Source: Chrysophaeum taylorii (lineage: Eukaryota; Sar; Pelagophyceae; Pelagomonadales; Pelagomonadaceae). From it: a stretch of 60,000 nucleotides of DNA. The stretch spans positions 1 to 60,000 of the forward strand of contig JAQMWT010000142.1 of assembly GCA_029834535.1 (NCBI GenBank), read 5' to 3'. The position numbers and the translations under genes were made by a program. Below, piece after piece: positions 15,727-56,000 of the stretch. The number at the start of each line of letters is the position of its first letter. Position 1 is the first letter of the stretch. The notes under the pieces were generated by a model. The model was not told where the DNA came from. It saw only the letters and a list, made by a program, of their open reading frames with translations, and searched no databases.

Positions 15727-16103
15727 GTCGTGGTGGTGGTCGTCGTCGTGTTCCCATGTGGAGGTAACTGCAAGGCGCGAGCCCTCGCGTGTTTCCGGGC
15801 CCACCTCTGCCTTGCGCCACGGAGAATACGCTGCTCGAGCTCGTCTCCGACGTCTGTGTCGTCGGCAGTACCTCGACCACCCTTCGAATTATAGCATGCG
15901 TGCGTGCACTGGGTGGGGCTCTCTCGAGAGTCAAGAGGGCGCTAAGTGCGTGTGCCCTGAAGTTCGGCGGAACGGCTCGCCCAGCAAGAATCGTTCCAAG
16001 AACATTTCCTTTAACGACTCGCCGCGTGCGTTTGGCTATGACGGCCGATTCGGTGGTCTCGGGTTGGCGAATAAGTACGCACTATTATACTATGAAATAA
16101 TCA
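15628..16103. other. Intergenic region with long CGT microsatellite
   Basis: No gene is supported. It contains (CGT)14 at 15685-15726 and otherwise unremarkable sequence ahead of the MFS gene. Confidence 0.6.
15685..15726. repeat. (CGT)14 microsatellite
   Basis: Fourteen uninterrupted CGT units. Similar GAC/GTC runs occur at gene ends through the window (for example 2502-2522, 31143-31168 and 34457-34479). Confidence 0.95.
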
Positions 16104-17817
16104 ATGCTGACTTTTTTGAGACACGGCTCTCGGTCAACCAGTTCCACGACGTGCGATAACACTTCCGCCGCCGCCGCAAAGGACGACAACAGCATGGACA
16201 CACTGCGCGGGGCATTCTCAGTCGTCGACGACGACGACGACGACGACGACGATATGAATGTGGACGATGGCGACATCGAACTCGGAAGCGTCGTGGTCGC
16301 GCAGAGTGAGCCGGAGAGCGCCGACGAAGAGACGGAGTTTACTCCGCCGGTAAAGGAGGTGGTGAGGCGTGCCCCGCTGATCGCGTTGTGTTTTGCCCTG
16401 TTTGCCAACTCGTACGCGCTCATGAATCCCGTGCCATACGCGGGGTTCATGGTCATCCGTTTCCACGTCGCGTCCGACGAAAAATCGGCAGGCTACTTTG
16501 CCGGACTGATCATGACGGCGTTCATGCTCGGGCGCTTCTTGTCGTCGTTTTATTGCGGAAGACTCTCGGACAGGATCTCGCGCAAGTTTGTTATCAGGAC
16601 CAGTCTCTGGAGTTGCGTGATCTTTCAGCTTGCCTTCGGCTTGTGCAGGACGTACCCGACGGCCCTGGCTGCGCGCCTTCTTTTGGGGTTCTTCAACGGA
16701 ATCGCGGGAGTTGCCAAAGCAGCCCTTCCCGAGCTCGTCCCCAAAGACGAGCAACAGACGGCCATGGGCTACGTCACGAACATGTGGAGCCTCGGCATGG
16801 TCGCGGGCCCTGCCGTTGGCGGCATCCTCGCCGAACGACAGAAAAAATGGCCGTATCTTTTACCAAACCTTATCGGCTCGTGCCTCGCTCTCGTCTCGCT
16901 CGCGGGCGTCGAGCTCTGGCTCCCGGGAAGACGTAGGAAAACCTACGCTCGTCTCGACACGAACGACGAAGAGGAGGTTGTTGTCGTCAAAAAAACAACA
17001 GCACCACCGGGCGAGGAGGTCGTTCCCGCCGAGGACGCGACGTACTGTCGTGCGATACCCGAGGCGTCGCGCTGGCCCGTTGGCATCTATTGCGTCTTTA
17101 GTTTCATTGGAATCGCCTACGACGAGTCCTATCCTCTCTGGCTGCTGGCACCAAGAAGTAGCGGTGGTCTTGCCATGAAAAGTGACTCGATCGGCATCGT
17201 TCGCGCTCGGCGTTTTCTTATGATTGTTTTTTCCGCCCGCGATGTAATACGCCCGCGCTCCTGCGCAGGTCATGGCTGTTACGGCCTGCGGCACGTTCGT
17301 CCTCATGTTTGTCGTCTTCCCGTTGATCTCGAAGCGCCTTGATTCTGCACAGCTTTTCAAGCTCTCCTGCACTGTCGTCGGTTTTGCTGTCTTCCTACCG
17401 CCGGCGATCGCCGCCGCGAGCACCCGCTTGGATCGTAGAGTCCTCGCTGGGTGTGACGCGCCAGGGTTTCTCACCTGGGCTCTCCTCCTCCCGCACAACT
17501 TGCTCTATCGCTTTGCTCTTTCCTGCTCATACACCGCGCTTTTCGTGTGCATCAACGACTCCGCCGACGCCGCCGTCCGGGGAGCAGTTAATGGCATCGC
17601 CATGAGCGTCGCCTCGGCTTTCAAGGCGGCGGGACCCTCGATGGGTGCGGCCGCTTTTGCGTGGTCCCTCAACAATAACCTGCCTCCACCCTTCGACCAT
17701 CGATTCCTTTTTCTGTGCTTAGGCGCAGCATCCCTGCTATCCGCGCTCCTCGCGAAGTATACCTTGGTGCCGGCTGCGGTACGCGTGCCACCACCGCCCA
17801 AATCACAGGGACGGTAA
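16104..17817 (+). CDS. MFS transporter, zinc-induced-facilitator (ZIFL) type
   Basis: Two exons (16104-17198 and 17269-17817) encode about 547 aa; the 70-bp intron has a GTTCGC donor. The acidic cytosolic N-terminus includes nine consecutive Asp from a GAC repeat. The first transmembrane segment is near LIALCFALFANSYALM, and the MFS loop motif GRLSDRISRK follows TM2. The AMKSDSIGI block, just before the splice, matches the mid-protein loop of ZIF-like members. Twelve helices are plausible, with a long acidic central loop (EEEVVVVKK). Plant homologues are proton-coupled exporters that move zinc chelators, potassium or auxin at vacuole or plasma membranes; the substrate here is unknown. A later ATG at 16194 (MDTLRGAF) is an alternative start. 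Confidence 0.85.
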
Positions 17818-18323: not shown

Positions 18324-20789
18324 TCAGGCGACGGGGTTGTTGGGCCAGTAGAGGGTGTTGGCGATGTTGCTGGCGTCGTCCTCGATGGGGTCGTCGTCCA
18401 TCTCGTATTCGTAGGTCAGGACGAGAGGATGCTGGAGCGAGGTTCCTCGGAGGCAGGAGGGTCGGTTTGAGAACAATCCCTCGGGAAGGCCGGCGTAGGC
18501 GAGCGTTACGTGCTGCGGGAGGACGATCGGTTGAAAGGGCATGTCTTGGGCTTGGCCGAGCCAAGCGACGGCGTTGGTGGAGTCGACGCAGAGGGCGGTC
18601 GCTGCTTGGAAGAGGGAGTCGATGTGACACTCGAGGGCGAGGGCGACGAGACTCGCCGCGGCGCGGCTAGTTCGGACAGAACGGTGGAAACCCTCGATCG
18701 GGTAGTGGTGCATGGCGACGACGCGGCGAAGGAGGGCGAAGGGTTCGTCCGTCTCAGGAAGAATTTCTCTTCCGGTCGGGTCGTCGTCGTCGTCGTCGTC
18801 GTCGAGGTTTGATGAATAACGCGTCGCCGCCCGGAGGAGGCGTTCTATCGCGAGCGCGGGGACGATGCCGCCGTAGAGAGACTGGTCTCTTCCGAGGGAA
18901 AAGAAGGTCGCGAGCGCGAGAGCCGCGTCGGCGAGGGTGGCGAGGTCGCTGATACTGTTGGGGTCGCGCTGGACAAGAACGGTGCCGACCAGCTCCATGA
19001 ATCCCAGAAGCCAGCGAGTCGCGATCTCTGCCGCGCGCGAGACGCTGTCCGAGGCCACGTAGCGGACGTGGCGCATAGCGATCGCGTGGATCGCCGTGGC
19101 GACGAGGTCACCCTCGCGGAGCAAACCGGCCCGTATAGACGCGGCCGAGGTGGCCGACCACACTTCAAAGCTCTGGCCGCAGTGGAGCTCCCGTCGCAAG
19201 GATCGCCAGTCGTCGTCGAAGCCGTTGACGCGCTCGCTCTCGTCGTCGGCCAACACGATCGACGCCCACGCGTCGCCGCTCTCCGACCACAAGAGTCGGC
19301 GGAGGTCGAGCGTCGCAAAGTGACCCGCCTCGAGCGCTCGGACGAGCTGCGCGGCCTTGACGGTCGAGAGGACGACCTCCTCGTACGCGACGTCCGCGAG
19401 AAGCTTCTCGTCGCCGAGAAGATCGCGACGCCGCGCCTCGGGCCACTCCCTCAGCACGAAGACGGGCGCAAAGTCGCACCTCGGGCAACATCCAACGACC
19501 ACGCCGACGGGGATGCCGGTGCTCTGGACGAGGGGGGCCTGAGGCGCCGCGTCGACCTCGCGGACCGAAACGAGCGAATAATCGTCGTCGCGTTCCGATT
19601 CGCCCGCAAACAGGAACTCCTCGTCCGCCTCGTATACGTTGAGCCGCATCTCTCGCAGCGCCGCGCGCAGCCGCGCGCGGTCCAGCAGCACACACCGCTC
19701 GTCGCCACCACGAGAAAACGATGGAGGCTGCAACTCGGGCTGTCGACGCTCGGCGGCAGTCAGCCCGGAATCGGGCCAGTCCCAGAGACGATCGCTCTCG
19801 CGCGACTCGTCGTCGCTCTCGTCGCTGCTAAAATCGCTCTCCTCCTCCTCCTCGACGTCAGCGTCGTCACCACGACGACGACGACGACTACGCGAGGGCC
19901 TCTCGAGGACCGTGGCCTTGAGTCGCTCGAAGCTGGCGAGATCGTCGGCGCACGTCCGCGAGAAGGGCCGCGACCTCGCGACGTCGCGCGCGCCCAGACA
20001 AAAGCGCATCATGGTGTCGGCAAAGGCCCGGAGCGTCGCCTCGGGCGCGAACTTAATCCCCATGCGGTGGCAGAGGGCTCGCAGGCCCGCGCGCAACAGG
20101 CGTCCCGACCGGTCGTCCGGCCTCAGGAGCGCGTCCGAGCTGTTGGCACACTCGCATCTCGCCGCGTCGGGGTTGGGCGACGCGCCAGAGTCGCGAATGG
20201 TCGCGAGATCGCGCGGGCTAGCGCGGTCAACAGGACGAACGCATCGTGGCCGTGGTAAAGGGAGCGGCGGCAACCGCGCCCCGAGCCCCGACAGCCGGAG
20301 GGCGAGCTCGACGTCGCTCGCCCACACGAAGTGGCGCTTGTTGGTCGACGACACGTACGCGGCGTGTTGGGCTACCTGGCGCGTCAAGCTTTCCGCGGCC
20401 TCGTGGAGCAGCTCGCACGCCGACCGCGTCAGAGCCGGCGGCACGAAGCCCAACAGATGCGCGTGAACGACCGTGCGCGGCACGCGAAACCGCAGCGTCG
20501 CGATCGCCTCGATCGTCCGGCGCGCGCCGACCGTCGTCGCGATCCAGTAGTCCTCAAACACCATCCGCGCGAAGCACTCGAACGGTACCAGCAGCTCGGC
20601 CTCCTGCTGGTACCGTCCGATGCACTGGAGCGCTTGCACTTGGTTTCCCACGGCCTCGAACCGATGCGCGGCGGGCAGCCGCCGGACCGACGCCTTGCGC
20701 GCCCACTCGACCATGGTCCCCCGAGCCTCGCTCACCTTTTCGCGCTTGCCATCCGCTCGCTGCCGCTTGGCTTTGAAAGCGCCGGCCAT
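18324..20789 (-). CDS. Four-histone-fold fusion protein (H3-H4-H2B-H2A-like)
   Basis: An 821-aa single-exon protein. Residues 1-40 are a basic tail. Residues 41-168 align with histone H3: HRF..VG, ALQCIGRYQQEAELLVPF (compare H3 ALREIRRYQKSTELL) and ARMVFED, an extended loop 1, then CELLHEAAESLTRQVAQHA, NKR and ASDVELALRLSG in the alpha2-loop2-alpha3 position. Residues 232-290 resemble H4 (LRALCHRMGIKFAP matching IRRLARRGGVKRIS, then ADDLASFERL). An acidic linker spans about 308-335. Residues 556-660 fit H2B, ending in LRAATRYSSN, like the H2B C-terminal AVTKYTSS. Residues 681-790 fit H2A, with IVLPQHVTLA matching IIPRHLQLA. H3 and H4 similarity is clear by eye; H2B and H2A are weaker. Dimer partners are adjacent, as in giant-virus histone doublets. 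Acidic insertions (also eight Asp near residue 663) make simple DNA packaging uncertain; a nuclear role is inferred. Confidence 0.7.
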   Translation of the reverse strand: MAGAFKAKRQRADGKREKVSEARGTMVEWARKASVRRLPAAHRFEAVGNQVQALQCIGRYQQEAELLVPFECFARMVFEDYWIATTVGARRTIEAIATLRFRVPRTVVHAHLLGFVPPALTRSACELLHEAAESLTRQVAQHAAYVSSTNKRHFVWASDVELALRLSGLGARLPPLPLPRPRCVRPVDRASPRDLATIRDSGASPNPDAARCECANSSDALLRPDDRSGRLLRAGLRALCHRMGIKFAPEATLRAFADTMMRFCLGARDVARSRPFSRTCADDLASFERLKATVLERPSRSRRRRRGDDADVEEEEESDFSSDESDDESRESDRLWDWPDSGLTAAERRQPELQPPSFSRGGDERCVLLDRARLRAALREMRLNVYEADEEFLFAGESERDDDYSLVSVREVDAAPQAPLVQSTGIPVGVVVGCCPRCDFAPVFVLREWPEARRRDLLGDEKLLADVAYEEVVLSTVKAAQLVRALEAGHFATLDLRRLLWSESGDAWASIVLADDESERVNGFDDDWRSLRRELHCGQSFEVWSATSAASIRAGLLREGDLVATAIHAIAMRHVRYVASDSVSRAAEIATRWLLGFMELVGTVLVQRDPNSISDLATLADAALALATFFSLGRDQSLYGGIVPALAIERLLRAATRYSSNLDDDDDDDDPTGREILPETDEPFALLRRVVAMHHYPIEGFHRSVRTSRAAASLVALALECHIDSLFQAATALCVDSTNAVAWLGQAQDMPFQPIVLPQHVTLAYAGLPEGLFSNRPSCLRGTSLQHPLVLTYEYEMDDDPIEDDASNIANTLYWPNNPVA

Positions 20790-22108: not shown

Positions 22109-22355
22109 ATATGCTTTATTTTTGGCTTTGGCAGTTAGTTTTGTGCCGGAAACTTCCCCGCAGGATCCGCCAAAAGCAAGACTTCCGCCCACCACCACTC
22201 ACTCATCACTGTATGTCCATGTGATGGGCGTGGTGTGAGAAGAGGGATCCGTGCCGCGGTGCGGTGTTCCTCTCCCGCGCTTGTTGCTTTGCTCCTCTCA
22301 AGGATACTTCATCCCTCGCCTCGGGGCCTCCCTTCCCTCTTCCTGCTCGAGAATT
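22109..22355. promoter_or_regulatory. Divergent intergenic promoter region
   Basis: 247 bp between two diverging start codons. A TTTATTTTTGG stretch lies next to the minus-strand start. No specific factor site can be named. Confidence 0.3.
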
Positions 22356-24437
22356 ATGATCGAAGGTATCGCTCTCGCGGTGTGGTGCTTCCGGACCTTT
22401 GGCACGACCTCAGCGCTCTGGTACTGGGGTGTCGCGGCGGTGGTGACCTGGGCATTGTGCGGTTTTTTCTCGCGGGGACGGAACGACGAGTTCGAGGCGT
22501 TAGTTGCTCGACGCGAGCCGCCAGAGGAGGAGGAGGAAATGGCAGACGCGGCGGCGGCGTCGTCGTCTTCGTGCGGGCCGGCGATGCTCGACTGCCAGAA
22601 CACAAAGCAGGCGGGCGCGGACGAGGCGACGGTGATCGCGCACCCCTACGTGAGGCGGTCGAGTTCGGGCGGCAGCCTCGAAATCTTTGCCGAGGTACCG
22701 CGGTGCGACGTGAATCCGTGGGTCAACGCGACCTGGCGGGTGACGGCTTCCGAACGACTCAAGATAAGCCTCGGCGCGCCGTGGCTTATCCCCGCGCGCG
22801 TGGGTCTCATCCTCCTCGCGATTTTGAACGCGGTTGTCTTCGCCAACATCGCCACCTTGGGGTGGAACGGGCGGCCGAACGTCGAACCGCGCGGCCTGCT
22901 GCGATGGCGCCCCGCGTTCCTCGAGCGCGCGTTGCGCAACTTTCGCCGCGGCCGCTTGCGACGGGTCCGCGACGTGACGAGGGAGGGCGACCGGCTCGTC
23001 GGCAGCGACCAAGACGGCCGGCGGAGGCTCGTGCTGCCCGACACGGCGCCCGTGCCGCGGTGGCGGAAACTGCTCGGGCTGCCCGTCATGGCGAGCGTCC
23101 AGCTCATTCTCTGGGGCGTCGGATTTTGGCGCGTACGGGTCATCGGCCGCGAGCACCTCACGTCGGAGGCACGCGTCGTCGTTTGCAACCACGTCTCGAT
23201 GATCGAGCCGGTCCTGCTGTTGATGATCACCGGCGCCACCCCCGTTACTTCGTCCGAATTCGCCAAACTTCCGGGACTCGGCCCCGTCGGCCGTCTCTAC
23301 CAGCTCCTCTGGCTCGACCGCGGCAGCGTGCCGTCGCGGCAGGCCGTGATCGAAACCATCGGCCTGCGGTGCGCCGACCGCGAGTTTCCACCGGTCTTGG
23401 TCTTTCCCGAGGGCACCACCCTCAACGGCAGGGCGCTCATCTCGTTCAAGAACGGCGCCTTCGCGCCGGGCATGCCCGTTCAGCCAGTCGTCGCGCGCTT
23501 TCCGTACCAAGTCGTCTGCGGCCTCGGACTCGACTGCTCGTGGACTACGGCGGGCCCGCAGTTCGTCGAGCTCAGTATTCGCATGATGATGCAACCCTGG
23601 AACCGCCTCGAGCTCGAATTCCTCCCCGCGTACCGCCCTTCGGCCCGAGAGCGCGCCGAAGCCCCCCTCTTCGCCGCCAACGTCCGCGACGTCATGGCCG
23701 CCGCCCTCGAGGCCCCCACGACCGAGCACTCGTGGGCGGACATGTGGTTGAACATGACAGCCAGAAAGCTCGGCGAGCCCCCCCACCGCACCCTCGTCAG
23801 CCTCGGCGCCCTCAAGACCTTCCTCGGCGGCCGGACCTACGAGCGCGAGCGCGCCGCCAAGGCCCTCGAGCGTTTCGCGACAGCTGACGTCGAAAAGGAC
23901 GGCAAGCTCACGCTCCGCCAGTTCCGCGACGCCCTCCGCGGCGAAGACGACGACGACCTACCCCCGTTGCTCGCCCCCGAGCGCCTCCTCGACCGCGACG
24001 CCGTCGACGCCCTCTTCCGCCTACTCTCGCGCGGCAGCCAAACGGTCGACTTCTTCTCTTTCCTCGTCGGCTTCGCGCTCCTCGACGTCCCCGACGAATC
24101 AGACACCGACTCGGCCCTCCGCCTCGTCTTCGCGCTCCTCGACGTCGCCTGCGAAGGCGTAGTCCGCGAAAGTCGCGTCTGCGCCGCGTTCGAGGCCCGC
24201 CGTATCGGCCCCGTCTCCGAAGAAGACACTGAGTTTGTCGACGACGACGCCTTCGTGCGCACGGCCGCCCATGAAGACGACACTTTCCTCACCGAGGACG
24301 ACTTCGTCAAGTTCGTCAAGGCAAATCGAAGAGACATTCGACAAGCGCTCCTCCAACAACAGAACAACGCGCAAACGTTGCCGCCCGACGATGACGACGA
24401 CGAGGGCGACGACGAAATACCTACCATCGACGCTTGA
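22356..24437 (+). CDS. Lysophospholipid acyltransferase, LPEAT type, with EF-hand region
   Basis: A 693-aa membrane enzyme that probably transfers acyl groups from acyl-CoA to lysophospholipids in the ER (Lands cycle). Hydrophobic segments occur near the N-terminus (WYWGVAAVVTWALCGFF), near residue 185 (VGLILLAILNAVVFANI) and near residue 285 (MASVQLILWGVGFW). The PlsC-domain motifs are VVVCNHVSMIEP (HX4E in place of the common HX4D), then FPEGTTLNG and the block ISFKNGAFAPGMPVQPVV. The HX4E form and these blocks match plant LPEAT1/2 more than LPCAT. The C-terminal region has an EF-hand-like loop (DVEKDGKLTLRQ) and an acidic tail. The start is the first ATG in frame at 22356; the frame upstream has only GTG. 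Confidence 0.88.
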   Translation: MIEGIALAVWCFRTFGTTSALWYWGVAAVVTWALCGFFSRGRNDEFEALVARREPPEEEEEMADAAAASSSSCGPAMLDCQNTKQAGADEATVIAHPYVRRSSSGGSLEIFAEVPRCDVNPWVNATWRVTASERLKISLGAPWLIPARVGLILLAILNAVVFANIATLGWNGRPNVEPRGLLRWRPAFLERALRNFRRGRLRRVRDVTREGDRLVGSDQDGRRRLVLPDTAPVPRWRKLLGLPVMASVQLILWGVGFWRVRVIGREHLTSEARVVVCNHVSMIEPVLLLMITGATPVTSSEFAKLPGLGPVGRLYQLLWLDRGSVPSRQAVIETIGLRCADREFPPVLVFPEGTTLNGRALISFKNGAFAPGMPVQPVVARFPYQVVCGLGLDCSWTTAGPQFVELSIRMMMQPWNRLELEFLPAYRPSARERAEAPLFAANVRDVMAAALEAPTTEHSWADMWLNMTARKLGEPPHRTLVSLGALKTFLGGRTYERERAAKALERFATADVEKDGKLTLRQFRDALRGEDDDDLPPLLAPERLLDRDAVDALFRLLSRGSQTVDFFSFLVGFALLDVPDESDTDSALRLVFALLDVACEGVVRESRVCAAFEARRIGPVSEEDTEFVDDDAFVRTAAHEDDTFLTEDDFVKFVKANRRDIRQALLQQQNNAQTLPPDDDDDEGDDEIPTIDA

Positions 24438-25329
24438 TATTATCTTCTTGTTGTTGTTGTTGTCGGATCTCCCTGCCGGGCTGTCCTGCATGTACTCAGA
24501 GCGCAGCGCTCGGGCCGAAAAAAATGAATTTGATTTTTTTTCCGGTCCCGACCACATCTTCCTCACTTCTTCTGCTGAGGCACCTTTTTTGATGATGATG
24601 ATGATGATGATGATGACGACGACGACGGCCACCCCTCTGCTCCGCCTCTGGGCGCCTCGACGAGACCCGCCGTGCTATCGACAACTCTGCGCAACGAGGA
24701 CGTGACGCGACCGCCCTCCATGACCGTCTGTGTACATAAAACGCAGACCCCGGAGCCTCAACAACAACCGACGCCGGAGATAGGGAGGTGGGACCCCCTT
24801 TGGTCGTACTTCTTGGCTGTCATCAGCAGGAGCCTCGGGCGAAGAAGTAGCACCGAGCGCCGCGGGTGCGCTATCAAGTATCCTTTTGCAAAACGCGCAG
24901 ACTCCTGCTCGCATGCACAAAACCTGAGCCACCCTGCCCTCGGTGACTTCGTCCTCTTACGCTCGGTCTCAACTCGATGCGAGCTTCGTCGGTCGCGCAA
25001 TGTAGCGGCTGCCCCCGCGCTAGACGTGTGGGCCTAGAGTAAGAGCAACGAAGGTGCGTCTCGGAGGCACGCGCAACAAGAAAGGGGCTGCCTGCTCTCT
25101 ATTCGAGATTGGTCGGAAGTGTTTTTGAAGCAAAGTTCCTCGGGATGTCGTGAATGTAAACCCCTGAGCCCTCATGTCTCCAAAAAACGGACCACCTAAC
25201 CCCCAAGCCTACCCCAGTTGACCTTGTCGCCGACTCGGGTATAGCAGTGAAAAAATGGGTGGCTTCTCCGGATCTGCCTGAGTGCCCACATCATTTTCGC
25301 TACTTAAAGAGTAGGCTGTCACATCGGGC

Positions 25330-37721: not shown

Positions 37722-40700
37722 TAGGGTCGGATAAGAAAGCTCAAAACTAGGCCCTAGCCTACATTTCGAACACCAAACGGGAAACCCTCATTCAAAAGTG
37801 GATTGTCTCAGGCTATGTTTCAAACATAGCCTGCAAAATCACAAAATCGGCGTTCCGCCCATGGAATCGGCCGAAACGAGCAAAGAGTCGGCCCCGGGTC
37901 CTTCTGTAACCCCTGTGGACCCTTCGGTCCCGGCTGAGTTGACGAAAGTGTCGAAAAAACCCGCTGCCAAACGTCAACGGCGAAAAAACCTCTTGAGGGG
38001 AGAGTGCGTGTGCTGCGTAGCGAGGCTCGACGCCGACGAGACGGCCAGGGGCCAGCCGCTCGACCTGGAGCGACTCCTGAATATCGAGGGCGAGCTGCCC
38101 GACAAGTTCTACATGTGCTCGAAAATGTGCCGGGACGACTTCACCCCGAGCAAGCTACACACGACGAAGGGCGCGAAGGCCGTTCTCGCCCGGATCTCCG
38201 CGTCGCTAACTAGGACTCTCAAGACAACCATCCGCAGCGGGGACGAGGTCCTCATCGAGCACGACTTCTCGGCGGGGCACAACATCCAGGGCGGCAACGG
38301 CGTTGTCCTGGGCCTAATCTACAACAACACTGTGTGTCGGGTCGAGTCATACGACGTGAAAACGATTCAGCAGGGAGAGATCCGCGTCCCGTTCTCCCAC
38401 GTCAAGGCCAAGCCCACAAGGAGAACGACACCCCCCCGATTCGGCGACTACCACCCGGACGGCCAGCGCGTCCGACGCTTGGATCGAGTGGGTCATCGGT
38501 TATCTCCACACTGTCGTCGTCGTCGGACTCGAATGTGCGGATCTCGGAGCTCGAGAAGGAGGTGTCGAAACTCCGGAGCACGGTCGACAAGCTCACGGCG
38601 GCCAAGACGGCTCAGCACTCTCGCTCTGTCACCGCCGAACGCGAGACGAAAGAAGCCCACGCCGACGCCTTCGCCGCGGAAATGGCGGCCGCCAAGGCAG
38701 ACGCGGCGCGTCTCGAGGCCAAGTGGAAGTACGAGGACGAGGTCCGGGATGCCGCACGTCGGGAGGCACGGCTCCAGGTCCGCATCGAACGCCACCAGGC
38801 CTCCAATGAGAAGCAGCGCAACCGCGATGCCGCGAGGCTGCAGCGAGCCATCGACGAGCTCAACGCGACCAAGGCCCAGTCGAACGAGGCGGCGAGACAG
38901 GCTGCGGCGGCGGCCGAGTTTCGGGAGAGGAACCGACTGAAGAAATCGGACCCTCGGGCCATGCGACAACTCAAGAACAATTACGCCGCCCTCAACCAGG
39001 AAGCGAAGCAAATGGAGATAAAGCTCGCGGCTGCCGAGGACCGCGTCCAGGCCCGGGAGGAGGAGATCGAGCGGCTGCGGGAGCGGGTCGCGGTCCTCGA
39101 GAAGCAGAACGCCGAAGTGTGGGTACCGCGGAAGCCGTCCGGCAAGGGATCCGGCAAGGGCACTCCGTGGGACTCGAAGCTCAGGGTGCTGTGTATGAAA
39201 CTGCTCGCCTCGCGGGTTGCGCCTGCGGAAATCCCCGAGGTCCTGGTCTCGGTCGTCGAGGCGGTCGTTGGCCCGGAGCGAGTGCGTGACATGGAGCTCC
39301 CGTCCGCACGCTTCATTCGCGACCTGCGCTCCGAGATGGGTGTCCTTCACGAGGCCGCCGTCGCCCTCGCCGTGGGATACGGTGACGTCGTCGACGCGGC
39401 GACGGACGCGTCGCCGCTCGACGGCAAGGAGATCGCGACTACCCAACTTCGCGTCACACGCGGCGTCGTGACGGAGAACTGGACGCTTGGCGCGAGCGAG
39501 ATCTCCGACCAGAGCGCGCCTGGCGAGGCCAAGGCGATCAACGATCGGTTTGGTGACCTGAATCGAGCGCTCCAGCTCGTTAATCAAGTTTACCAGGAGC
39601 TCTACGGAGCCGACGCTGCTGCGGAGGCGCTCCCGGCCGCCGGCAGCGCCGGCGTGCAGAATCTCGCCGGCCGGGCCATCGTTACCGACAACGCCTCCGC
39701 CGCCATCGCATCGGTCCGCGAGCTCCAGGAGCATGTCCTCGCGGCGGTGCAGAAGGAGATCGGGGAAGAGCTGTGGAATTTGATGACGCAAGACGAGCGC
39801 GACGCGAAGACTCGTGTCTTTCACGGGAACTGCCAGCGACATCTCGGTACGTCGTGCCGTCCCACCAGCAATTTGTTGAGCAGGCAACACATGGCTCGAC
39901 GGCGGCGCCGCCGAGGAGGCCAAGATGCTCGACACGCTGCTGAAGGATAGCATCGAGAGCTCGGAGGCGAAGCACCTGCGCCTCACCGGCGAGTTGAACA
40001 AGGTCATTCATGCCTTGTCCAAGTGTATCGGCGAGGGCGTGGATCGCTACGGGAAGGGCTTCGGGACCCCTCTCCGGGCATTCCTCGAGGAGAAGCACCC
40101 GTCGGAGCTCTACCTCACGCTCGGCCGCACGGACAAGGGGACGCGGCAGGACGCGTGCACCAACGCGGCCTGGGTCATCTTCCACAACCTCCCGTTTCTC
40201 GTCGAGTTCCTCGAGAACGCGAGCTACGCGCCGCAGAACATCCTCAGGAACAACCTCTTCTCGACCTTGTCCTCGCAGGAGGTCGCCGGAGCCATTCGAG
40301 CCCGAGCGATCATCGACGACAAGCTCACGGTGCCTTTCCGATTTTTCGCCGCATCGGACGCCCTCGAGGGTTGGTCGGTTCTCGACATGGCGGGCGTTCT
40401 CGAGCGAGTGCATGCCTTCTTCCAAGTCTGCCAGGATAATCCACAACTCGTTGCGACCGCCGGTTACGAGGCCTTCGACACTGAGATCGCCACCTACGCC
40501 CAGTTCCTCGAGACGCGGGCCGGGTCGGCGAAGCTGTCCGTCGACGGCCAGTCCACGATCCGCGACGTCGCGGCCGTTCGGGCGCGGCTCTACGCTCCGA
40601 CTGACACCAATGATCCAGAGGCCAAGACCATGCTCGACGCGCTCCGGGCCTGGGGCCGCGGCATGCGCCGCACGTTCGAGGGGGCAGTCTATGCGCTACG

Positions 40701-42388
40701 TCGGCGACGGCGACCTCGCGGCGGTCAACCAGACGTCGGAGCTCCGGAGGGCCTTCGACGGCGCGCGGCGGAACTCGAACGAGGTCGAAGGCGAGTTTGG
40801 CGTATTGAAGTATTACAACGCCTCCTACGTCAACATGAGCGTCGTGAACTGCGTCGGGGTCGTCGCGTGCCAACGGGACCACATGTTCGACCGGGCCGCC
40901 ACGAGTTTTACGACCAAGCGCCGGCGACGCGTCGCCGACGAGGTCGCTGGTCGAACGACGACGAAGGCTCGAATGCGCGATCGAGTTGGTGGAGGACGTC
41001 TCGCCACGCTCGGCGACGACTTTCGAGGAGTGTTGATGGAGGCGGCTCGTCGTGGTCGGCAGAACCACAAGGAGCAGGCTGCCGCGCGCGCGGAGGCGGC
41101 GAAGGAGCACCATCGCCGTCGCGCCGCCGCGTTCGTCGAGAAGGCCCTCGAGCGCCAGGTGAACGACTACGCCAAGGCCCAGGAGGCCATGAAAGTCAAG
41201 CCTGTCGTCGACGAGCAGGCCCTCGTCGGGAGGACCCTGCTCTCGACGGTCAAGAAGCGACTTGATGCGGCACTTAAGCAGATCTCGAGCGACGCTGCGC
41301 GGTCGAAGGTCCTCAAGGAGAACATCGACAGGTACGTCGTCGGCATGGGCATGGGCGACCTCAAACCCAAGTCCTACACCTCGGGCAAGGACCCGACGAT
41401 CGGCTCGGCCGGTTCCAAGGCCAACATCGAATTCCTCACCGCGCACCTCGAGTACGTCTACGAGCAGATCAAGACCAACTCCCGCGAGTTGGTCGCCGAG
41501 GCGGTAGTCCCGGGCGAGCGCCGACGGCAGCTGCCAGTGCTCGGGACCGCGACGGCCCAGCGTCTCGAACTCGACGCGAGGCGGCACTTGAGCGTTGACG
41601 AGCTCAAGGCCAAGGTTGAGGAGTGCCGCGCCTTTCGCCATCCGAGGAAGCGGACGCGGACGAGTGGCCGCTCGAAGCTACCGACGATTGACGTGGCGTT
41701 GGTCGGGTCACGCGTCGAGGTTCTCTGGGAGTTGTCGGGGCACCCGGGCTGCTACTGGATGCCCGGCACCATCGAGGCGGTATCCGACGAGAACTCCAAG
41801 GACGGTCGCAAGAAACTCGGGCTGGGTTGGATCTTCGTTTCCTATGACGACGGTTTCAGCGGGTGGCTCCTCGCGAACCGCCCCACCTTCTTCAACGGCT
41901 CCAAGCCGGCTTCCTGGCGCTTCGTGTCCGAGGACAACGAATACGACGACGACGACGACGACGAGGAGGAGGAGGACGCGATGGACGTCGACGACGACGA
42001 CTACGCATAGCTGCGTTCGCGGGCCCCGACGCCGGTCTCCCGAGGACGCCCGGAAAGACGAGGACACTAGAACTGGCCCCAGCGAACAAAAGGCGCCGTC
42101 TAAACGCCCACACGACCCTCATTGGGCCTACGGACATTCCCGATGCGCCGGTTGTTGTATTTGGAGCCGATGGCGTCGTGCAGAGTAGAGCCACCTAGGC
42201 CCCCGCCTCCACCGAGGCGCCAAAATACCTCACTCCCAAGTAGATTCGCCAAATCGGCAGCTACGGACTTCGTTCCAAGATAAAATCGGCACCATTTTGG
42301 GTCAACTTGGCGACGGACAAAAAAGCCCGCCAATCCTTGGGGATTTTCGGCCCCGGCGCGGGACCCCCGAGTTCCTTATCCGACCCTA
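37722..42388 (+). mobile_element. 4,667-bp cut-and-paste DNA transposon
   Basis: The ends are TAGGGTCGGATAAG at 37722 and its exact inverse CTTATCCGACCCTA ending at 42388. With one mismatch the inverted repeat extends to 17 bp. A perfect 7-bp direct repeat, CCGTTAC, flanks the element (37715-37721 and 42389-42395) and marks its target-site duplication. The interior encodes one large transposase-like protein on the plus strand. The perfect target duplication implies recent insertion. I cannot assign it to a named superfamily. Confidence 0.93.
37861..42010 (+). CDS. Putative DDE-type transposase of the 37722-42388 element, with two frame breaks
   Basis: A protein of roughly 1,370 aa spread over three frames. 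The N-terminus has a Cys cluster (CVCCVARL ... FYMCSKMC), a likely zinc finger, then an SH3-like stretch (SGDEVLIEHDF). A coiled coil runs from about 38540 to 39120. The catalytic core has candidate acidic residues in DATDASPLDG (39400), AIVTDNASAA (39680) and VEGEFGVLKYY (40785), plus a HGNCQRHLGNTWLDGG block that forms only after removing a 37-bp intron (39847-39883, GTACGT...GAGCAG), and a GTRQD motif near 40145. The C-terminus has a Tudor/chromo-like segment (SRVEVLWELSG ... VSYDDGFSGW) and an acidic tail. Frame breaks fall at a C7 run (about 38424-38430) and a G5 run (about 40679-40683), so decay or sequencing error is possible. Confidence 0.75.
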
Positions 42389-43609: not shown

Positions 43610-43700
43610 GAGACAAGTCAAGAAAGTTTCCTTGACTCAAAGCTACAAGTTTACGAAAACCAGCTGGCCTTTCATTGAACGGCAGGCGTAACGAAGAAAG

Positions 43701-44861
43701 ATGATGTGGCTATTGGTTGTCGCGAGTGGCGCCGCTGCGTTCGTCGCAGAACCATTCCGCGGTTCTGTGCGGTTGGGTGCGTCTTCGGCGCCGTCGGAGG
43801 AGGCGTGGCAAGAGGTCTTCGAGAAGGCCGTGCTCGACGTGCGGACCGGTCCACGCGAGCGGATCGAAGCGCTGGCGTCGCTCGCTAGTCGCGTGGAAGA
43901 TGTGGCCCGAGACGTGCAAGAGGCGACCATGAGCCGCGACGTGACGGCGCTGTTCGCGCCCAAGGACCGCGAGGCCGTGCGCGCCGTCCAGCGCCAGGTG
44001 AGGGAGGACTTGATCCCGGCTTTGCGGTCGACAAAGCCGCGCGAGGCGGCGAGCAAGCTCGGCGAGGTCGTTAATCAAGCGATCCAGCAACCGATCCAGC
44101 CGTCCTCGGTGGACCTGGGGCGCCTCGCCGACGATCTTGCCGAGGAAATATCTAACGTGTACGCAACTCCGTCGCTGGAGCAGCCGAGCTTCGCGATAGT
44201 CGGAGGGCTCGGCGACGACGTCGAAGTCCGCACGTACGAGGCGTACGTGGCGGCGACGACACCCATGACAGGCGAGTCCGTGACGGAGGAGGCGGGCTTC
44301 TCGAGCGGCGTCGAGTTTGGTAAACTCGCGGGTTACGTATTTGGGCAAAACGATCGCGGCGAGCGCATCGGGATGACGACGCCCGTCGAGATCGATTTCG
44401 TCGATGGCATCGCGACCTCGATGGCCTTTTCGCTCCCACGACGCTACGGAACGGCCGTCGATGCACCTCTCGCCGATGCCGTCGCCCTCGAGAACCGCCA
44501 GCCGTTTAAGTGTGCCGCGTTGACCTTCCCGGGTCTGGCTACGACTGGCGAGGTTCGCCGCGCGCTGGCGCGTATCCGGACGGCGATCGACGAATCACCC
44601 GACTACGTCGCCAGGGACGACACCTACAAATTGCTGCAGTTCAATCCCCCCTACACCCTCCCTTGGAGGCGAACCAACACGCTCCTCGTAGCCCTCGACG
44701 AAAACATCGACAACGAGTCTATCACCGTGGTTGCGGCGGCGGCGGCGGCGGCGGCGTCGACCCAAGACCTCACCGCCGGTGGTGCGACCACAATTGTCAA
44801 CGATAGCGACGACGACGACGACGACGACGGGAAAGGCGCTCCCGGTGCGGAGAAGTGCTGA
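43701..44861 (+). CDS. SOUL haem-binding protein, probably plastid-targeted
   Basis: A 386-aa single-exon protein. The N-terminus MMWLLVVASGAAA is a signal peptide followed by FVAEP, giving the A-F-V-x-P junction expected for red-derived plastids. Residues about 30-150 are helical and charged. The SOUL/HBP domain covers roughly 165-335: VEVRTYEAYVAATT, FGKLAGYVFGQN, IGMTTPVEID, and YKLLQFNPPYTLPWRRTN. Family members bind haem or tetrapyrroles, and algal members occur in plastids or the eyespot. An Ala8 run and an Asp8 run mark the C-terminal tail and stem from GCG and GAC repeats. The ATGATG start is at 43701. Confidence 0.9.
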   Translation: MMWLLVVASGAAAFVAEPFRGSVRLGASSAPSEEAWQEVFEKAVLDVRTGPRERIEALASLASRVEDVARDVQEATMSRDVTALFAPKDREAVRAVQRQVREDLIPALRSTKPREAASKLGEVVNQAIQQPIQPSSVDLGRLADDLAEEISNVYATPSLEQPSFAIVGGLGDDVEVRTYEAYVAATTPMTGESVTEEAGFSSGVEFGKLAGYVFGQNDRGERIGMTTPVEIDFVDGIATSMAFSLPRRYGTAVDAPLADAVALENRQPFKCAALTFPGLATTGEVRRALARIRTAIDESPDYVARDDTYKLLQFNPPYTLPWRRTNTLLVALDENIDNESITVVAAAAAAAASTQDLTAGGATTIVNDSDDDDDDDGKGAPGAEKC

Positions 44862-47446: not shown

Positions 47447-50400
47447 CTATCTCAAGCAGGATTCCGAGGCCGAGGGTGGAGTGAGGTCGAGTTGCGGCGT
47501 TTGAACGGCGCCCGACGCGCGTTGGTTGTGCACTGTCAAAAATAGATTCTTCGAAGCCTCATCCTGGACTTGACGACGAGCGTCGAGCACGCGTAGCATC
47601 CTAGGCGGCTCGTCGAGTTTTCTTGCTGCTGGCGGCGGCCCGTTGTTGTTGTTGTTGTTTTTCGGAGGCTGCTGCTGCTGTTGCTGCTGCTGCTGTTGGT
47701 AGGCGTCTCTCGTGACCGCCTGGCTCTTGCGGCGCGCCTCGCTCGCTCGACGCTTGGCGCGGTCGAGGAAGGCTCCTTCGTCGGGTACGGGAAATTTGAA
47801 GTCGTCCCGAAGCAAGGCAGCGCTCTTGAGGGCGTCGCGGCAGGCGAGGGCCGCCTCGCGGCGCGGCGGCAGGCGGGCCAAGCCAATGATGAGGCCCCGA
47901 AGCTCAACGTCCGAGGCTCCGAGAATTGCCGACGCGAGACGGTTTTTGGCGGGAGGCCCGTCGCTCTCTCCCCGAACGCGGTCCCCGGCGGCGATCTCTT
48001 CGATAAAGGTGACGCCCACAGCCGAGAGGGCGAGCAAGCCGGCGGCGAGGAACGCCTCGCCCGCGACGCCGGCCCACTCGGTTTCGAGCGCCCAGTCCGC
48101 GTCGACGCCCGACGCGGCATGGTCGGATTCGCCCGTGAAGATGAGTCGCGCGACGTAGGCGGTCACCGACGCGAACGCGAGCGTCTTGGCCGAGACCGAC
48201 GAGGCGACGAGAGCCGATAACTTGACGCCAAACGCCGCGCCTGCTGTCGACTGGGCCGAGCTCGACAACGCCATGGCGCTCTTGGCCGACGCGCCGAGCT
48301 TGGCCGACGCGCCGAGCGCACCCTTGGCCGCCGCGCCGCTAGCGACGCCCCCGGTCGCCGACGCGACGTACGACACGGCGAGCGTCGCGCCGCGCGGCGT
48401 TTCGCCGAGGGCGGAGACTATCTCGCGAACGCCTGCCGAGACGCCGTCTGGCAGCGCCGAGAGGACCACGCGCTCCCACAGCGCGTTCACGACCAGTTTC
48501 GCCAGAGGCTCGTACGCCTCGGGCGGGAGCGCCGCCAGCGTCTCGAGCGCCTTCTCGAGCACGAGCTCGGGCGACAGCTCGCGGAGCGTCGACAGCAACA
48601 ACGATTCGAGAGGAAGATCACTCTTCCCTTTCTCGCTCGCGAACGGCAACCACGACGTCATCCGGGCGCGGTCCAGGGTCTCGACGACGGGCTCGCTCGC
48701 GCCCGCGAAAATGATTTTGTTGTTGTTGGCGTCGTCGCCCGCGTCGGTACGTTTCTCTAGCAAGATACGTCGAAGCGACGCGATCGCTGCTTTGGCACGC
48801 GTGGTCGTGGTCTGCGATGCGCCATTAATATTATTATTTACAATGTCGTTGTTGTTGTTGTTGTTGTTGCTGGTAAAGGGTGGTTGTTGCGAGACAGTTT
48901 GCCGCTGCTGTAGCCGCTCGCGGCTCTTATCGTCGGGCGACCCCCCCGCCGCCGCTTTGGCAAACATTTCCGCGAGGTTAGCGAAACGGCTCGACTTCTT
49001 TTCGGCGGTGACGAGCGCATCGATGATCCCTCGCTTGACCCGGAACGGCGCCTCCTCCTTTGACAACAATCGGATTGCCTCGTCCGCCACGCGGTTCGGC
49101 TTGACGCCGTGGAGCAGCGCGTACGCTGTCGACCGGAGGATATCGACGTCGCAGCACTCGGCGGCGCGCGCGAGAGAGTGGAGAGCCGCGGCCGAGTTCG
49201 GACCGCGGTTCTTGTTGTCGGCGGCGGCGTCCAGAATCTTGGCGGCGAGATTGCGAAGCGCCGCCTCGGGCGCGGCGTCGACTAGGCTCGTCGCCGCCTC
49301 GACTAGTTCGTCAGGCGGGAGCGCTCGTACGAGCGCGACGGCCTCGTCGCGGACGAATTTTGCTGGCAGCGTTTCGACCAAAGAACGGACCTGCGCGGCC
49401 ACGAGGGCGGGCGGGAGGCGCTCGACGGCCTCGGCGACGGCCGACCGGGCCATCGCCTCGTCTGCCGTTCTCGCCGGGCTCGCCGGCTGAGGCGGTTGGC
49501 TCTTGCCGTTCGTCCCGAACAACCACGACGATCCAAATCGCTTGCGAAGACTAGGAAAGGACTTGCCGCGGTCCGTCGTCGGCAACACGAGTTGTTGATC
49601 GTCGACCTCTTCATCCTCGCGCGCGAGAACGCTGCTGCCTAACGGAGCGATCGGAAACAGCGTTGACGCGACGCGATCGAACGACTCCTGCGCTCTGCGC
49701 ATCTCGTTGCTGTTCTCGGCAAGCGCGGCCGCGAGGGCTGGTGTGCCGAGGAGGGCTCTGGCGCGCCCCTCCGAAAGCACCTGCACGGCGTCGGCGACTG
49801 CGCGTCGCCGCTCTGCCGCGGGAAGCGCGAGGAGAACCCGCGGCGCGAGCCACGCGGCCGTCGCGGCGTCCAGCTTCGAATTCAACAGCTTCTCTCGCAA
49901 AACAAGCACCGACTCGTTGGTGCCACCGGCACGCAGCTTGCTTCCGCCGGAAGACGAGTCGATCGTTCGACTCGCCGCGACGATAGCTGCCGGTGGCGGA
50001 GGTGCCCCCACGACGGCCGCGAGCACTCTCGGGGCGATCGTCTCCAGTCGGGCTGGTCCGACGCGCTTTACGGCGTTTCCGACGACCCGCTTCAGCGTCG
50101 GGGCGTCCGTCTCGCGAATCCATTTGTTCACCATAGTCTTTGCGACGCGACGCGGCACCAGCCGCGCGATCGCCACTTGACTCGTGTCGCGGACCACCTT
50201 GTCCAAATGGATTCCGTCGTGCTGCCGCTCCTTGCCCGCGCGCGGCTCCTCCTTACTAAACCTGTTAAAGAACAACGACCACAGGCCCTCGCTCTTTTTG
50301 GTCTCTTCTCCAACATTCCCCATAGTCGCATTCTCCATGTTTTTCAGCGCGAGCGCCGCCACAGCGGCCGCCTCTTGGCGCGTCTCGCCACGACTCTGAT

Positions 50401-50881
50401 CAGCGGCCATCCCGTCGCCTTCTCGGCGAGGCTTGTTGGTCCCCAAGATCGAGTTTGCGACCCACGCCGGCGCGGCAAAGAGCAGGATCGACTTGTGCTG
50501 GCGTGGCTGCAGGGTCTGACCCACGGCGATCAGGAGCGCCTTGAGGGCTTCTTCCGGCATAGCCTCGCAGACGCCGTTGAGCATCACTTTGAGCTCGTCG
50601 CCGGGCAACACTCCGAGGGCCATCACGCTCGACGCAATCACCGAGAGCGACTCCGCTTCGCGCAGAGTGGCTGCTTGCGTCGCCTCCGAGTTTTCCTCGG
50701 CGACCTGCCGCAGCCCGCGACGCTCCGTCGGCGCTTGCAAAGAAGACGACACGCGACGATCCGTCGGAGCTTGCACAGGAGACGACACGCGTCGCGGTGC
50801 CGTCGATATCATCACCCGAGGCACGGTGTCGATCAACGCCGCGCCGGGTACCAAGGCAAGCACACAATAATACAACACCAT
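47447..50881 (-). CDS. Large secreted or membrane protein of unknown function
   Basis: A 1,144-aa single-exon protein that I do not recognise. The N-terminus (MVLYYCVLALVPGAALIDT) is a signal peptide. Much of the body is helical with repeated Leu/Pro/Glu patterns (AVERLPPALVAAQVRSLVETL, and similar phrases such as ALVRALPPDELVEAATSLV, TLRELSPELVLEKALETLAALPPEAY), suggesting alpha-helical repeats of about 30-35 residues. Near residues 890-1000 are Ala/Ser-rich hydrophobic stretches (GVASGAAAKGALGASAKLG, then LAAGLLALSAVGVTFIEE) that could be membrane-associated. Poly-Asn (about residue 690) and poly-Gln/Asn runs near the C-terminus come from trinucleotide repeats. The PVQAPTDRR and SLQAPTERR phrases near residue 40 are a small internal duplication. 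Confidence 0.65.
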   Translation of the reverse strand: MVLYYCVLALVPGAALIDTVPRVMISTAPRRVSSPVQAPTDRRVSSSLQAPTERRGLRQVAEENSEATQAATLREAESLSVIASSVMALGVLPGDELKVMLNGVCEAMPEEALKALLIAVGQTLQPRQHKSILLFAAPAWVANSILGTNKPRREGDGMAADQSRGETRQEAAAVAALALKNMENATMGNVGEETKKSEGLWSLFFNRFSKEEPRAGKERQHDGIHLDKVVRDTSQVAIARLVPRRVAKTMVNKWIRETDAPTLKRVVGNAVKRVGPARLETIAPRVLAAVVGAPPPPAAIVAASRTIDSSSGGSKLRAGGTNESVLVLREKLLNSKLDAATAAWLAPRVLLALPAAERRRAVADAVQVLSEGRARALLGTPALAAALAENSNEMRRAQESFDRVASTLFPIAPLGSSVLAREDEEVDDQQLVLPTTDRGKSFPSLRKRFGSSWLFGTNGKSQPPQPASPARTADEAMARSAVAEAVERLPPALVAAQVRSLVETLPAKFVRDEAVALVRALPPDELVEAATSLVDAAPEAALRNLAAKILDAAADNKNRGPNSAAALHSLARAAECCDVDILRSTAYALLHGVKPNRVADEAIRLLSKEEAPFRVKRGIIDALVTAEKKSSRFANLAEMFAKAAAGGSPDDKSRERLQQRQTVSQQPPFTSNNNNNNNDIVNNNINGASQTTTTRAKAAIASLRRILLEKRTDAGDDANNNKIIFAGASEPVVETLDRARMTSWLPFASEKGKSDLPLESLLLSTLRELSPELVLEKALETLAALPPEAYEPLAKLVVNALWERVVLSALPDGVSAGVREIVSALGETPRGATLAVSYVASATGGVASGAAAKGALGASAKLGASAKSAMALSSSAQSTAGAAFGVKLSALVASSVSAKTLAFASVTAYVARLIFTGESDHAASGVDADWALETEWAGVAGEAFLAAGLLALSAVGVTFIEEIAAGDRVRGESDGPPAKNRLASAILGASDVELRGLIIGLARLPPRREAALACRDALKSAALLRDDFKFPVPDEGAFLDRAKRRASEARRKSQAVTRDAYQQQQQQQQQQPPKNNNNNNGPPPAARKLDEPPRMLRVLDARRQVQDEASKNLFLTVHNQRASGAVQTPQLDLTPPSASESCLR

Positions 50882-53050: not shown

Positions 53051-56000
53051 TCAGGCCGGCTCCTCGTTTATTCTAGAATCCATTTCTTTATAAGAATCGG
53101 ATCGTGACCAAACTGTTTCATTGTTTGAGACAGCCATCCAGATAAACACAAGGAACAAGGCAAGAAGGATGCCGCCAGTAAAGGCAAGAACAACAGACAC
53201 AATAAGGATTGCGCGAGTGAAACTTTTGGACTTTTTCTTCTTTGAATCCGCCTGCGACGTGTCGATGTCGACGCTTGCGATGCACACGCCGTCGGTGCAC
53301 TCGAGATCGACGCCGCACAGATCAGCGCCCTCCACGCAGGCTTCGCCCTCGCTTAAGAATGCCGACGACAGGAGAACCGTGCGGCCGTTCAGCGGCTGCA
53401 CGGGCCGGTAGTTGGAGGGATTTGGGAAGATGGACTGGAAGTACGCGTACTGCGAGGGCGAGATGGTCGACGTCTGCTGCATGACAAACCACTCGACGAG
53501 CTCCGAACACGGCGGGGTTGTCAGACTCCCATGGTAGCGATAGAAGTCTCCCGCTAAGATGTCAGAGAAGAAGGACAGATCCACGTTGCCCGAGATGGCG
53601 GTGCCTTCGTCACTCTCGACTGTCGGCGCTTCCTCGAACGCAATCGACTGCAGGAACTCGTTGTCGACATCATCCTCGGTCAGCTCGAAAAAAATACCGA
53701 CGACGACGTAGTCTCCCGCCGCAGACGAGTGGACGATGTGCATTTCGGCGTCGTAGTGCTCGCCGTCAACCGTGTGCTCCGAGAGCAAGTGGAAGTGGAA
53801 CTGACTTACGGCGAAGGCCGTGTCGCCAAGCGTCGCGTTGCCAAAGTGGCCTTCGACCTCGAGATTATGGCCCGTGTTGAGTATTTCCAGGCCATCGAGG
53901 GCGACGTAGTCGTGCTCAAGCCTTTCACCGGCGGAAGTCAGTGCCTCGCTCGGCACAATATCGATCGGGGATTGGTAGTCGCCAGCACAGTCCGTCCAGG
54001 CGCTACAGTTCGCCCACTGGTCCGGACCCAAGCATGCTTCACAATCCTCGCCGTAGGCATCCTTGCCATCTTCGTAACCGTACTCGCATTCTTGTTCCTC
54101 ATCGTCAACCGTGCCGTCGCTCCCCGTGCACACACCGTCGGTGCACTCGAGATCGACGCCGCACAGATCAGCGCCCTCAACGCAGGCTTCGCCCTCGCTT
54201 AAGAATGCCGACGACAGGAGAACCGTGCGGCCGTTCAGCGGCTGCACGGGCCGGTAGTTGGAGGGATTTGGGAAGATGGACTGGAAGTACGCGTACTGCG
54301 AGGGCGAGATGGTCGACGTCTGCTGCATGACAAACCACTCGACGAGCTCCGAACACGGCGGGGTTGTCAGACTCCCATGGTAGCGATAGAAGTCTCCCGC
54401 TAAGATGTCAGAGAAGAAGGACAGATCCACGTTGCCCGAGATGGCGGTGCCTTCGTCACTCTCGACTGTCGGCGCTTCCTCGAACGCAATCGACTGCAGG
54501 AACTCGTTGTCGACATCATCCTCGGTCAGCTCGAAAAAAATACCGACGACGACGTAGTCTCCCGCCGCAGACGAGTGGACGATGTGCATTTCGGCGTCGT
54601 AGTGCTCGCCGTCAACCGTGTGCTCCGAGAGCAAGTGGAAGTGGAACTGACTTACGGCGAAGGCCGTGTCGCCAAGCGTCGCGTTGCCAAAGTGGCCTTC
54701 GACCTCGAGATTATGGCCCGTGTTGAGTATTTCCAGGCCATCGAGGGCGACGTAGTCGTGCTCAAGCCTTTCACCGGCGGAAGTCAGTGCCTCGCTCGGC
54801 ACAATATCGATCGGGGACTGGTAGTCGCCAGCACAGTCCGTCCAGGCGCTACAGTTCGCCCACTGGTCCGGACCCAAGCATGCTTCACAATCCTCGCCGT
54901 AGGCATCCTTGCCATCTTCGTAACCGTACTCGCATTCTTGTTCCTCATCGTCAACCGTGCCGTCGCTCCCCGTGCACACACCGTCGGTGCACTCGAGATC
55001 GACGCCGCACAGATCAGCGCCTCAACGCAGGCTTCGCCCTCGCTTAAGAATGCCGACGACAGGAGAACCGTGCGGCCGTTCAGCGGCTGCACGGGCCGGT
55101 AGTTGGAGGGATTTGGGAAGATGGACTGGAAGTACGCGTACTGCGAGGGCGAGATGGTCGACGTCTGATGCATGACAAACCACTCGACGAGCTCCGAACA
55201 CGGCGGGGTTGTCAGACTCCCATGGTAGCGATAGAAGTCTCCCGCTAAGATGTCAGAGAAGAAGGACAGATCCACGTTGCCCGAGATGGCGGTGCCTTCG
55301 TCACTCTCGACTGTCGGCGCTTCCTCGAACGCAATCGACTGCAGGAACTCGTTGTCGACATCATCCTCGGTCAGCTCGAAAAAAATACCGACGACGACGT
55401 AGTCTCCCGCCGCAGACGAGTGGACGATGTGCATTTCGGCGTCGTAGTGCTCGCCGTCAACCGTGTGCTCCGAGAGCAAGTGGAAGTGGAACTGACTTAC
55501 GGCGAAGGCCGTGTCGCCAAGCGTCGCGTTGCCAAAGTGGCCTTCGACCTCGAGATTATGGCCCGTGTTGAGTATTTCCAGGCCATCGAGGGCGACGTAG
55601 TCGTGCTCAAGCCTTTCACCGGCGGAAGTCAGTGCCTCGCTCGGCACAATATCGATCGGGGACTGGTAGTCGCCAGCACAGTCCGTCCAGGCGCTACAGT
55701 TCGCCCACTGGTCCGGACCCAAGCATGCTTCACAATCCTCGCCGTAGGCATCCTTGCCATCTTCGTAACCGTACTCGCATTCTTGTTCCTCATCGTCAAC
55801 CGTGCCGTCGCTCCCCGTGCACACACCGTCGGTGCACTCGAGATCGACGCCGCACAGATCAGCGCCCTCAACGCAGGCTTCGCCCTCGCTTAAGAATGCC
55901 GACGACAGGAGAACCGTGCGGCCGTTCAGCGGCTGCACGGGCCGGTAGTTGGAGGGATTTGGGAAGATGGACTGGAAGTACGCGTACTGCGAGGGCGAGA

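Follow-up and report, generated by a model that had tools for sequence, protein, structure and literature searches.

An H3-Like Segment in an Acidic, Lineage-Restricted Candidate Histone-Fold Protein Family of an Alga

Results and Discussion

The protein P0001, encoded by one uninterrupted 821-aa frame on the minus strand at positions 18324-20789 of the window (the whole 60,000-nucleotide stretch of DNA analyzed here), contains an N-terminal segment (residues 52-168) whose H3-like character is supported by sequence, with several methods in agreement (table 1). P0001 is conserved in a homolog (herein P0002), is acidic overall, and is single copy beside ordinary histone genes. An original prediction, made from the DNA letters and their translations, had read it as a single polypeptide joining all four core histones in the order H3-H4-H2B-H2A. 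The single polypeptide was recovered as an open frame that aligns end to end with P0002, and the motifs quoted in that prediction are present in P0001; of the proposed order, one H3-like fold holds by sequence and an H4-like partner is plausible, whereas the H2B and H2A readings fail by sequence. P0001 is best called a histone-fold protein family, as far as its sequence indicates, and not a histone quadruplet.

Table 1. Features of P0001 and their positions in the window
Feature	Positions	Strand	Description
P0001, whole protein	18324..20789	-	821-aa open frame; one genomic place; full-length alignment with P0002
H3-like block 1, residues 52-82	20544..20636	-	Resembles H3 helix alpha-N and helix 1 (RYQ..ELL, FAR)
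Inter-block stretch, residues 83-121	20427..20543	-	About 30 residues more than H3, at the position of loop L1; gaps in Smith-Waterman and hhalign alignments
H3-like block 2, residues 122-168	20286..20426	-	Resembles helix 2, loop L2 (KR), and helix 3 (SDVELALRLSG); Pfam Histone, PDB profile, shuffles
Candidate second histone fold, H4-like or TAF-like, residues 226-297	19899..20114	-	Weak hhalign match; Bromo_TP in P0002
Acidic linker, residues 308-333	19791..19868	-	Much reduced in P0002
Conserved central region, residues 421-545	19155..19529	-	C-C-P-x-C motif; 57/123 identical to P0002
Segment originally read as H2B, residues 546-661	18807..19154	-	Histone support not found
Run of eight Asp	18780..18803	-	Absent from P0002
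Candidate helix 1-loop 1-helix 2, residues 683-734	18588..18743	-	Inside the segment originally read as H2A; closer to CENP-A/H3 than to H2A

Host Genome and Genomic Neighborhood

The GC content of the P0001 frame at codon positions 1, 2, and 3 (0.70, 0.50, and 0.82) follows the pattern that a GC-rich genome would be expected to give its coding frames, and a search of the full assembly (70.8 Mb in 697 contigs) found the protein at one place only. The host is an alga, as indicated by 84 matches to the chlorophyll a/b-binding family in this genome; neighboring matches of equal or near-equal score at C88, C539, and C533 look like tandem arrays.

Conventional histones are encoded by the same genome. 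There are 55 matches to the Pfam Histone family at E <= 0.001, P0001 not being one of them, and open frames for H2A, H3, H4, and H2B lie together within one stretch of 6.5 kb (L010). A further H3 of ordinary size, labeled CENP-A-like from its sequence, is found elsewhere (L012; C57:23500-24800, open frame 445-894 on the plus strand). The presence of the canonical set together with a separate CENP-A-like H3 indicates that P0001 is not needed for packaging. We also considered P0001 as the CENP-A of this genome and rejected the idea, given that an 821-aa chain is not an H3-sized single domain and that the CENP-A-like H3 at L012 is a separate gene. An in-frame intron appears to separate HAK from RVTIM in the L012 frame, which is a candidate for the centromeric histone of the alga.

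Among 18 other open reading frames of the window searched against Pfam, eight have a match at E <= 0.001 and ten have none. The matched frames belong to ordinary cellular families, the neighbors including Vps52, an MFS transporter, an acyltransferase, an rRNA dimethylase, a SOUL protein, and carbonic anhydrases, and no viral family occurs among these eight. No tRNA was found in the window, nor any Rfam family at the gathering score. Several neighbors have features of their own: two overlapping frames of 918 and 642 aa at 53051-57540 (minus strand) carry three and two eukaryotic-type carbonic anhydrase stretches per chain, respectively; a 728-aa frame at 22251-24437 (plus strand) has an acyltransferase domain and weak EF-hand matches; and two long frames, at 47447-50881 (minus strand, 1144 aa) and 40010-42010 (plus strand, 666 aa), have no Pfam match at E <= 0.001.

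A Single Homolog and the Pattern of Conservation

P0002 (753 aa, 39% identity over 95% coverage) is the one homolog found. In protein searches that each scored only the roughly 8000 candidates sharing most words with the query, both the whole of P0001 and the two-row alignment returned P0002 alone, and a 260-aa N-terminal fragment returned no protein at E <= 0.01. Aligned end to end with MAFFT, the two proteins are 43% identical, with identity highest in the second of the four originally proposed histone segments (38/69; segments are numbered here 1 to 4 from the N-terminus), in the H3-like segment (66/136), and in the central region (residues 421-545; 57/123). Identity is lower in the two C-terminal segments (44/111 and 38/93) and in the acidic stretch (11/34), and little of the basic tail at the N-terminus of P0001 is conserved (8 of 28 aligned residues identical).

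No relative was found in the bacterial and archaeal contigs scanned, or in a viral contig collection scanned five times with P0001 or its parts as query. Two scans of the viral contigs with the H3 and H2A of this genome as queries also returned nothing, although viral histones have been published, which suggests that the viral scan is insensitive; absence from viruses is hence not established. P0001 is best called a lineage-restricted orphan family, new and unplaced, with an H3-like domain.

Evidence for an H3-Like Segment

The original assignment of residues 41-168 to H3 is borne out by Pfam, by a PDB profile search, by hhalign, and by shuffling. Cut out of the protein, the H3-like segment matches the Pfam Histone family at 2.8e-6 (28.0 bits; cut-off 26.4); in the context of whole P0001 the match covers residues 121-166 and falls just under the cut-off (1.3e-5, 25.9 bits), and whole P0002 reaches 22.3 bits. 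Searching the PDB with the single P0001 sequence gave nothing significant (E 0.3 for the best hit, an H3/CENP-A chimera, and E 0.4 for CENP-T). With the segment's two-row profile, 163 PDB sequences were retrieved at E <= 10, the lowest E being 1.6e-4, and the best 60 of these 163 are all H3, CENP-A/CSE4/cnp1, doublets (H4-H3, Delta-Gamma), or "histone-domain" entries. Alignment by hhalign with the H3 of the same genome extends over 88 columns (E 4.2e-4, probability 34%), and NCBIfam gives an archaeal-histone match, under the cut-off (E 0.0054 and 0.013), to this segment only.

Pairwise comparisons were assessed with 3000 shuffles across 50 comparisons (five histones, five segments, and two proteins) and with control windows across 15 comparisons (411 windows from other frames of the window and 136 from the eight Pfam-supported frames); both tests used one sequence per histone, all from the same genome, and segment limits that had been set by eye ahead of the tests. 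By Smith-Waterman alignment, residues 41-90 match the genome's own H3 with a score of 55 (z 8.0) that none of the 3000 shuffles reached, and match the CENP-A-like H3 with a z of 5.2, whereas z lies between -0.8 and 0.6 for H4, H2A, and H2B; block 1 of P0001 is thus H3-specific. For residues 101-177, the H3 score was likewise reached by 0/3000 shuffles, but the H2B and H4 scores also stand out (6/3000 and 47/3000), so that block 2 is histone-like rather than H3-specific. The corresponding blocks of P0002 are less clearly of the H3 type: block 1 is much weaker against H3 (118/3000), and block 2 places H2B (2/3000) slightly ahead of H3 (18/3000).

The best alignment with H3 can be had only with long gaps between helices 1 and 2, where P0001 has some 30 extra residues. 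It is possible to read the same sequence as a continuous histone fold that would start near residue 102, with block 1 as an N-terminal addition; we prefer an interrupted H3, block 1 being the part of P0001 that matches H3 most strongly.

The Remaining Histone Assignments

Residues 232-290 had been assigned to H4, an assignment that the alignment statistics do not confirm. The H4 of this genome is the best of its four own histones in hhalign, and the match is in register over helix 1 (18 columns, E 0.025, probability 1.9%). The H4 score of segment 2 was nonetheless reached by 339/3000 shuffles in P0001 (316/3000 in P0002) and by 104/411 and 22/136 control windows. A PDB profile search with this segment returned no histone, and Pfam returned no family at E <= 10 for segments 2, 3, and 4 of P0001. 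Segment 2 of P0002 matches Bromo_TP, which we take to be a histone-fold family, at E 0.17, under the cut-off and behind an unrelated DUF (E 0.062). We consider an H4-like partner fold plausible for residues 226-297.

The H2B reading of approximately residues 556-660 does not hold by sequence: 1602/3000 shuffles reach its score, and neither Pfam nor the PDB profile search gives a histone there. The H2A reading of approximately residues 681-790 does no better against H2A (392/3000 shuffles; 77/411 control windows), and this segment scores higher with the CENP-A-like H3 (score 47), a score reached by 5/3000 shuffles and by none of the control windows (0/411, maximum 41; 0/136, maximum 38). The match of segment 4 to canonical H3 is weaker (76/3000 shuffles; 15/411 and 2/136 control windows). 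In P0002, H3 also gives the best score for this segment (33/3000), but in a register that differs from that of P0001, and Pfam reports CBFD_NFYB_HMF at E 0.29. As one of about 50 comparisons, the resemblance of segment 4 to CENP-A/H3, and not to H2A, is at most suggestive. Internal repeats between the segments of P0001, of the kind that internal duplication would leave, were not found. The original prediction had staked the four-histone reading on significant matches to histone folds in the H4, H2B, and H2A segments; by sequence, none of the three gave one. Neither the order H3-H4-H2B-H2A nor the proposal that two molecules could form an octamer-like particle is supported.

Structure prediction gave models of very low confidence (mean AlphaFold pLDDT of 33.4 for the full-length protein and 39.0 for residues 34-300), probably because only two sequences are known. 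Helices in the full-length model fall at residues 122-149/156-166, 227-243/250-272/277-295, 581-608/613-635, and 709-746/758-766; their lengths are weakly compatible with histone folds in several places in both halves, and the C-terminal half is predicted, at low confidence, to be helical with one weak histone-like stretch. Foldseek and VIA were applied to these low-confidence models, and in a structure comparison of the model of the N-terminal half H3 chains ranked among, and not above, unrelated helical proteins.

Charge, Linkers, and the Central Region

Nucleosomal core histones are strongly basic and lysine-rich, and neither protein is so as a whole (P0001, pI 5.37 and 1.2% Lys; P0002, pI 5.52 and 2.5% Lys). 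Overall, P0001 does not resemble a histone that packages DNA. On their own, its segments 1 and 2 are mildly basic (pI 8.65 and 10.63; net charge +2 and +6), and since loop L2 of the H3-like segment also keeps the KR of H3, the N-terminal half may contact DNA.

The acidic linkers had been put forward as a hint of a chaperone role. A histone chaperone with acidic tracts would be expected to conserve such a tract; the acidic linker of P0001 is much reduced in P0002, and the Asp run is absent from it. Asp runs of at least six residues occur in seven stop-free frames of the window that are 150 codons or longer, the P0001 frame included, and acidic linkers may be a habit of this genome. Linkers that are not kept in the homolog and are common in the window are no argument for a chaperone. 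Other frames with such runs lie at 16101-17339, 43692-44858, and 24579-25034, all on the plus strand. The Asp-run linker gave the sole PHROGs match (E 0.03). For the conserved central region no known family was found: over residues 366-545, which include it, Pfam matches do not go below E 0.13 and the PDB gave none that was meaningful.

A Proposed Non-Packaging Adaptor and Its Alternatives

We tentatively favor, at a little under an even chance, the explanation that P0001 is a lineage-restricted, non-packaging adaptor or scaffold built on an N-terminal H3-like histone fold, probably with an H3-H4-like pseudodimer. The protein would probably be nuclear, and its H3-like fold would pair within the chain with residues 226-297, as in double-histone-fold proteins. 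Protein docking, more than DNA wrapping, would be favored by the residues added at loop 1 and by the acidic, lysine-poor character of the chain. A complex acting in chromatin or transcription would be recruited or held through the conserved central region and C-terminal half, and DNA packaging would not be the role. The C-terminal half possibly holds one further histone-like unit of the H3/CENP-A type; an H2B-H2A pair there is not established. Several results sit uneasily with this explanation: the fold of every segment is sequence-based or a candidate, both AlphaFold models being of very low confidence; the H4-like partner is significant by neither shuffles nor control windows; segments 1 and 2 are themselves mildly basic, with the KR of H3 kept in loop L2; P0002 is weaker in its H3-likeness, with a block 2 slightly closer to H2B; and the model of the N-terminal half does not single out H3 chains. 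An elaboration that we consider decidedly improbable would place H3-H4-like and C-terminal H3/CENP-A-like pseudodimers around the new conserved domain of this acidic chain, making P0001 a non-packaging nucleosome mimic that occupies the histone-binding surfaces of the chromatin machinery.

An unlikely reading that nevertheless deserves serious weight is that P0001 has one H3-derived N-terminal domain, the rest of the chain being unrelated and the other three "histones" reflecting chance resemblance among amphipathic helices. Clear significance is confined to segment 1, segments 2 and 3 fail against shuffles and control windows, the suggestive match of segment 4 is one among some 50 comparisons, and internal repeats were not found, all of which this reading accommodates; however, a lone H3-type fold would need a partner, and histone-fold families are among the weak matches that segments 2 and 4 give. 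The converse possibility, that P0001 is a true four-histone-fold protein with H3-H4 and H2B-H2A pseudodimers so divergent that only H3 is visible, and with two copies forming an octamer-like particle, seems to us improbable. The helix lengths of the low-confidence full-length model, the weak CENP-A/H3 match of the last segment, and the CBFD_NFYB_HMF match of its P0002 counterpart (E 0.29) are in its favor, but H4, H2B, and H2A are without a significant match, the last segment resembles H3/CENP-A and not H2A, the chain is acidic and almost without lysine, and about 250 residues, with an acidic stretch and the conserved central region, separate the two halves, compared with median linkers of 12-56 aa in the viral quadruplets (PMC11222145).

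It would surprise us greatly if P0001 were a viral histone repeat captured (endogenized) from a giant virus that has since lost its packaging role. Viral histone triplets and quadruplets do exist (PMC11222145, PMC9145170). The PDB profile search did retrieve H4-H3 and Delta-Gamma doublets at E 0.0021-0.0037, but H3 and CENP-A chains that are not doublets score equally well or better; we presume the doublet entries to be viral. The five scans of the viral contig collection gave no relative, in what appears to be an insensitive search, and the eight neighbors with a Pfam match include no viral family.

Comparison with Known Histone-Fold Systems

Giant viruses encode fused histones, including quadruplets of the H2B-H2A-H3-H4 and H2B-H2A-H4-H3 types (PMC11222145, PMC9145170). 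In the Nucleocytoviricota quadruplets of Irwin and Richards (2024), it is reported that all four core histones are recognized, with median linkers of 12-56 aa, and that quadruplets of two of three configurations gave nucleosome-sized protected DNA in Escherichia coli (PMC11222145). P0001 shares with them the proposed series of histone-like segments in one chain, but only one of its four histones is recognizable, and it is an acidic protein of 821 aa with about 250 residues, including a conserved central region, between its halves. Viral histone quadruplets being already published (PMC11222145), the novelty is lowered; a literature search of restricted scope found no four-histone chain in eukaryotes, an absence that is not firm. 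Should the histone folds of the C-terminal half be real, P0001 would be an unusual eukaryotic chain, one that carries more than two of them. The case also cautions against naming histones from short motifs.

Like CENP-A and other H3 variants, the H3-like segment of P0001 matches H3 and CENP-A chains best (among the best 60 of 163 PDB profile matches), but P0001 differs from them in its length of 821 aa and in the approximately 30 residues added between helices 1 and 2. A likeness to the TAFs of TFIID and SAGA is hinted at by the weak Bromo_TP match of P0002 segment 2 (E 0.17), but this match is under the cut-off, and the one Bromo_TP match and one TFIID-18kDa match of the genome lie elsewhere.

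Double histone folds are also known in non-nucleosomal eukaryotic proteins, namely SPT3, SOS, and ABTB2/Cca3, and the histone folds of SOS are described as lacking the electrostatics for nucleic-acid binding (PMC13088155 for both points). Compared through Pfam and PDB only, P0001 and P0002 differ from these proteins in having no ankyrin, BTB, Ras-GEF, or SPT3-type (TFIID-18kDa) Pfam domain. By analogy, P0001 may be a cytosolic interaction module like the histone domain of SOS. P0001 would share with this group a divergent histone fold in a protein that is not nucleosomal, and it offers a modest pointer to the way in which folds of the H3 type come to be used in proteins that do not package DNA.
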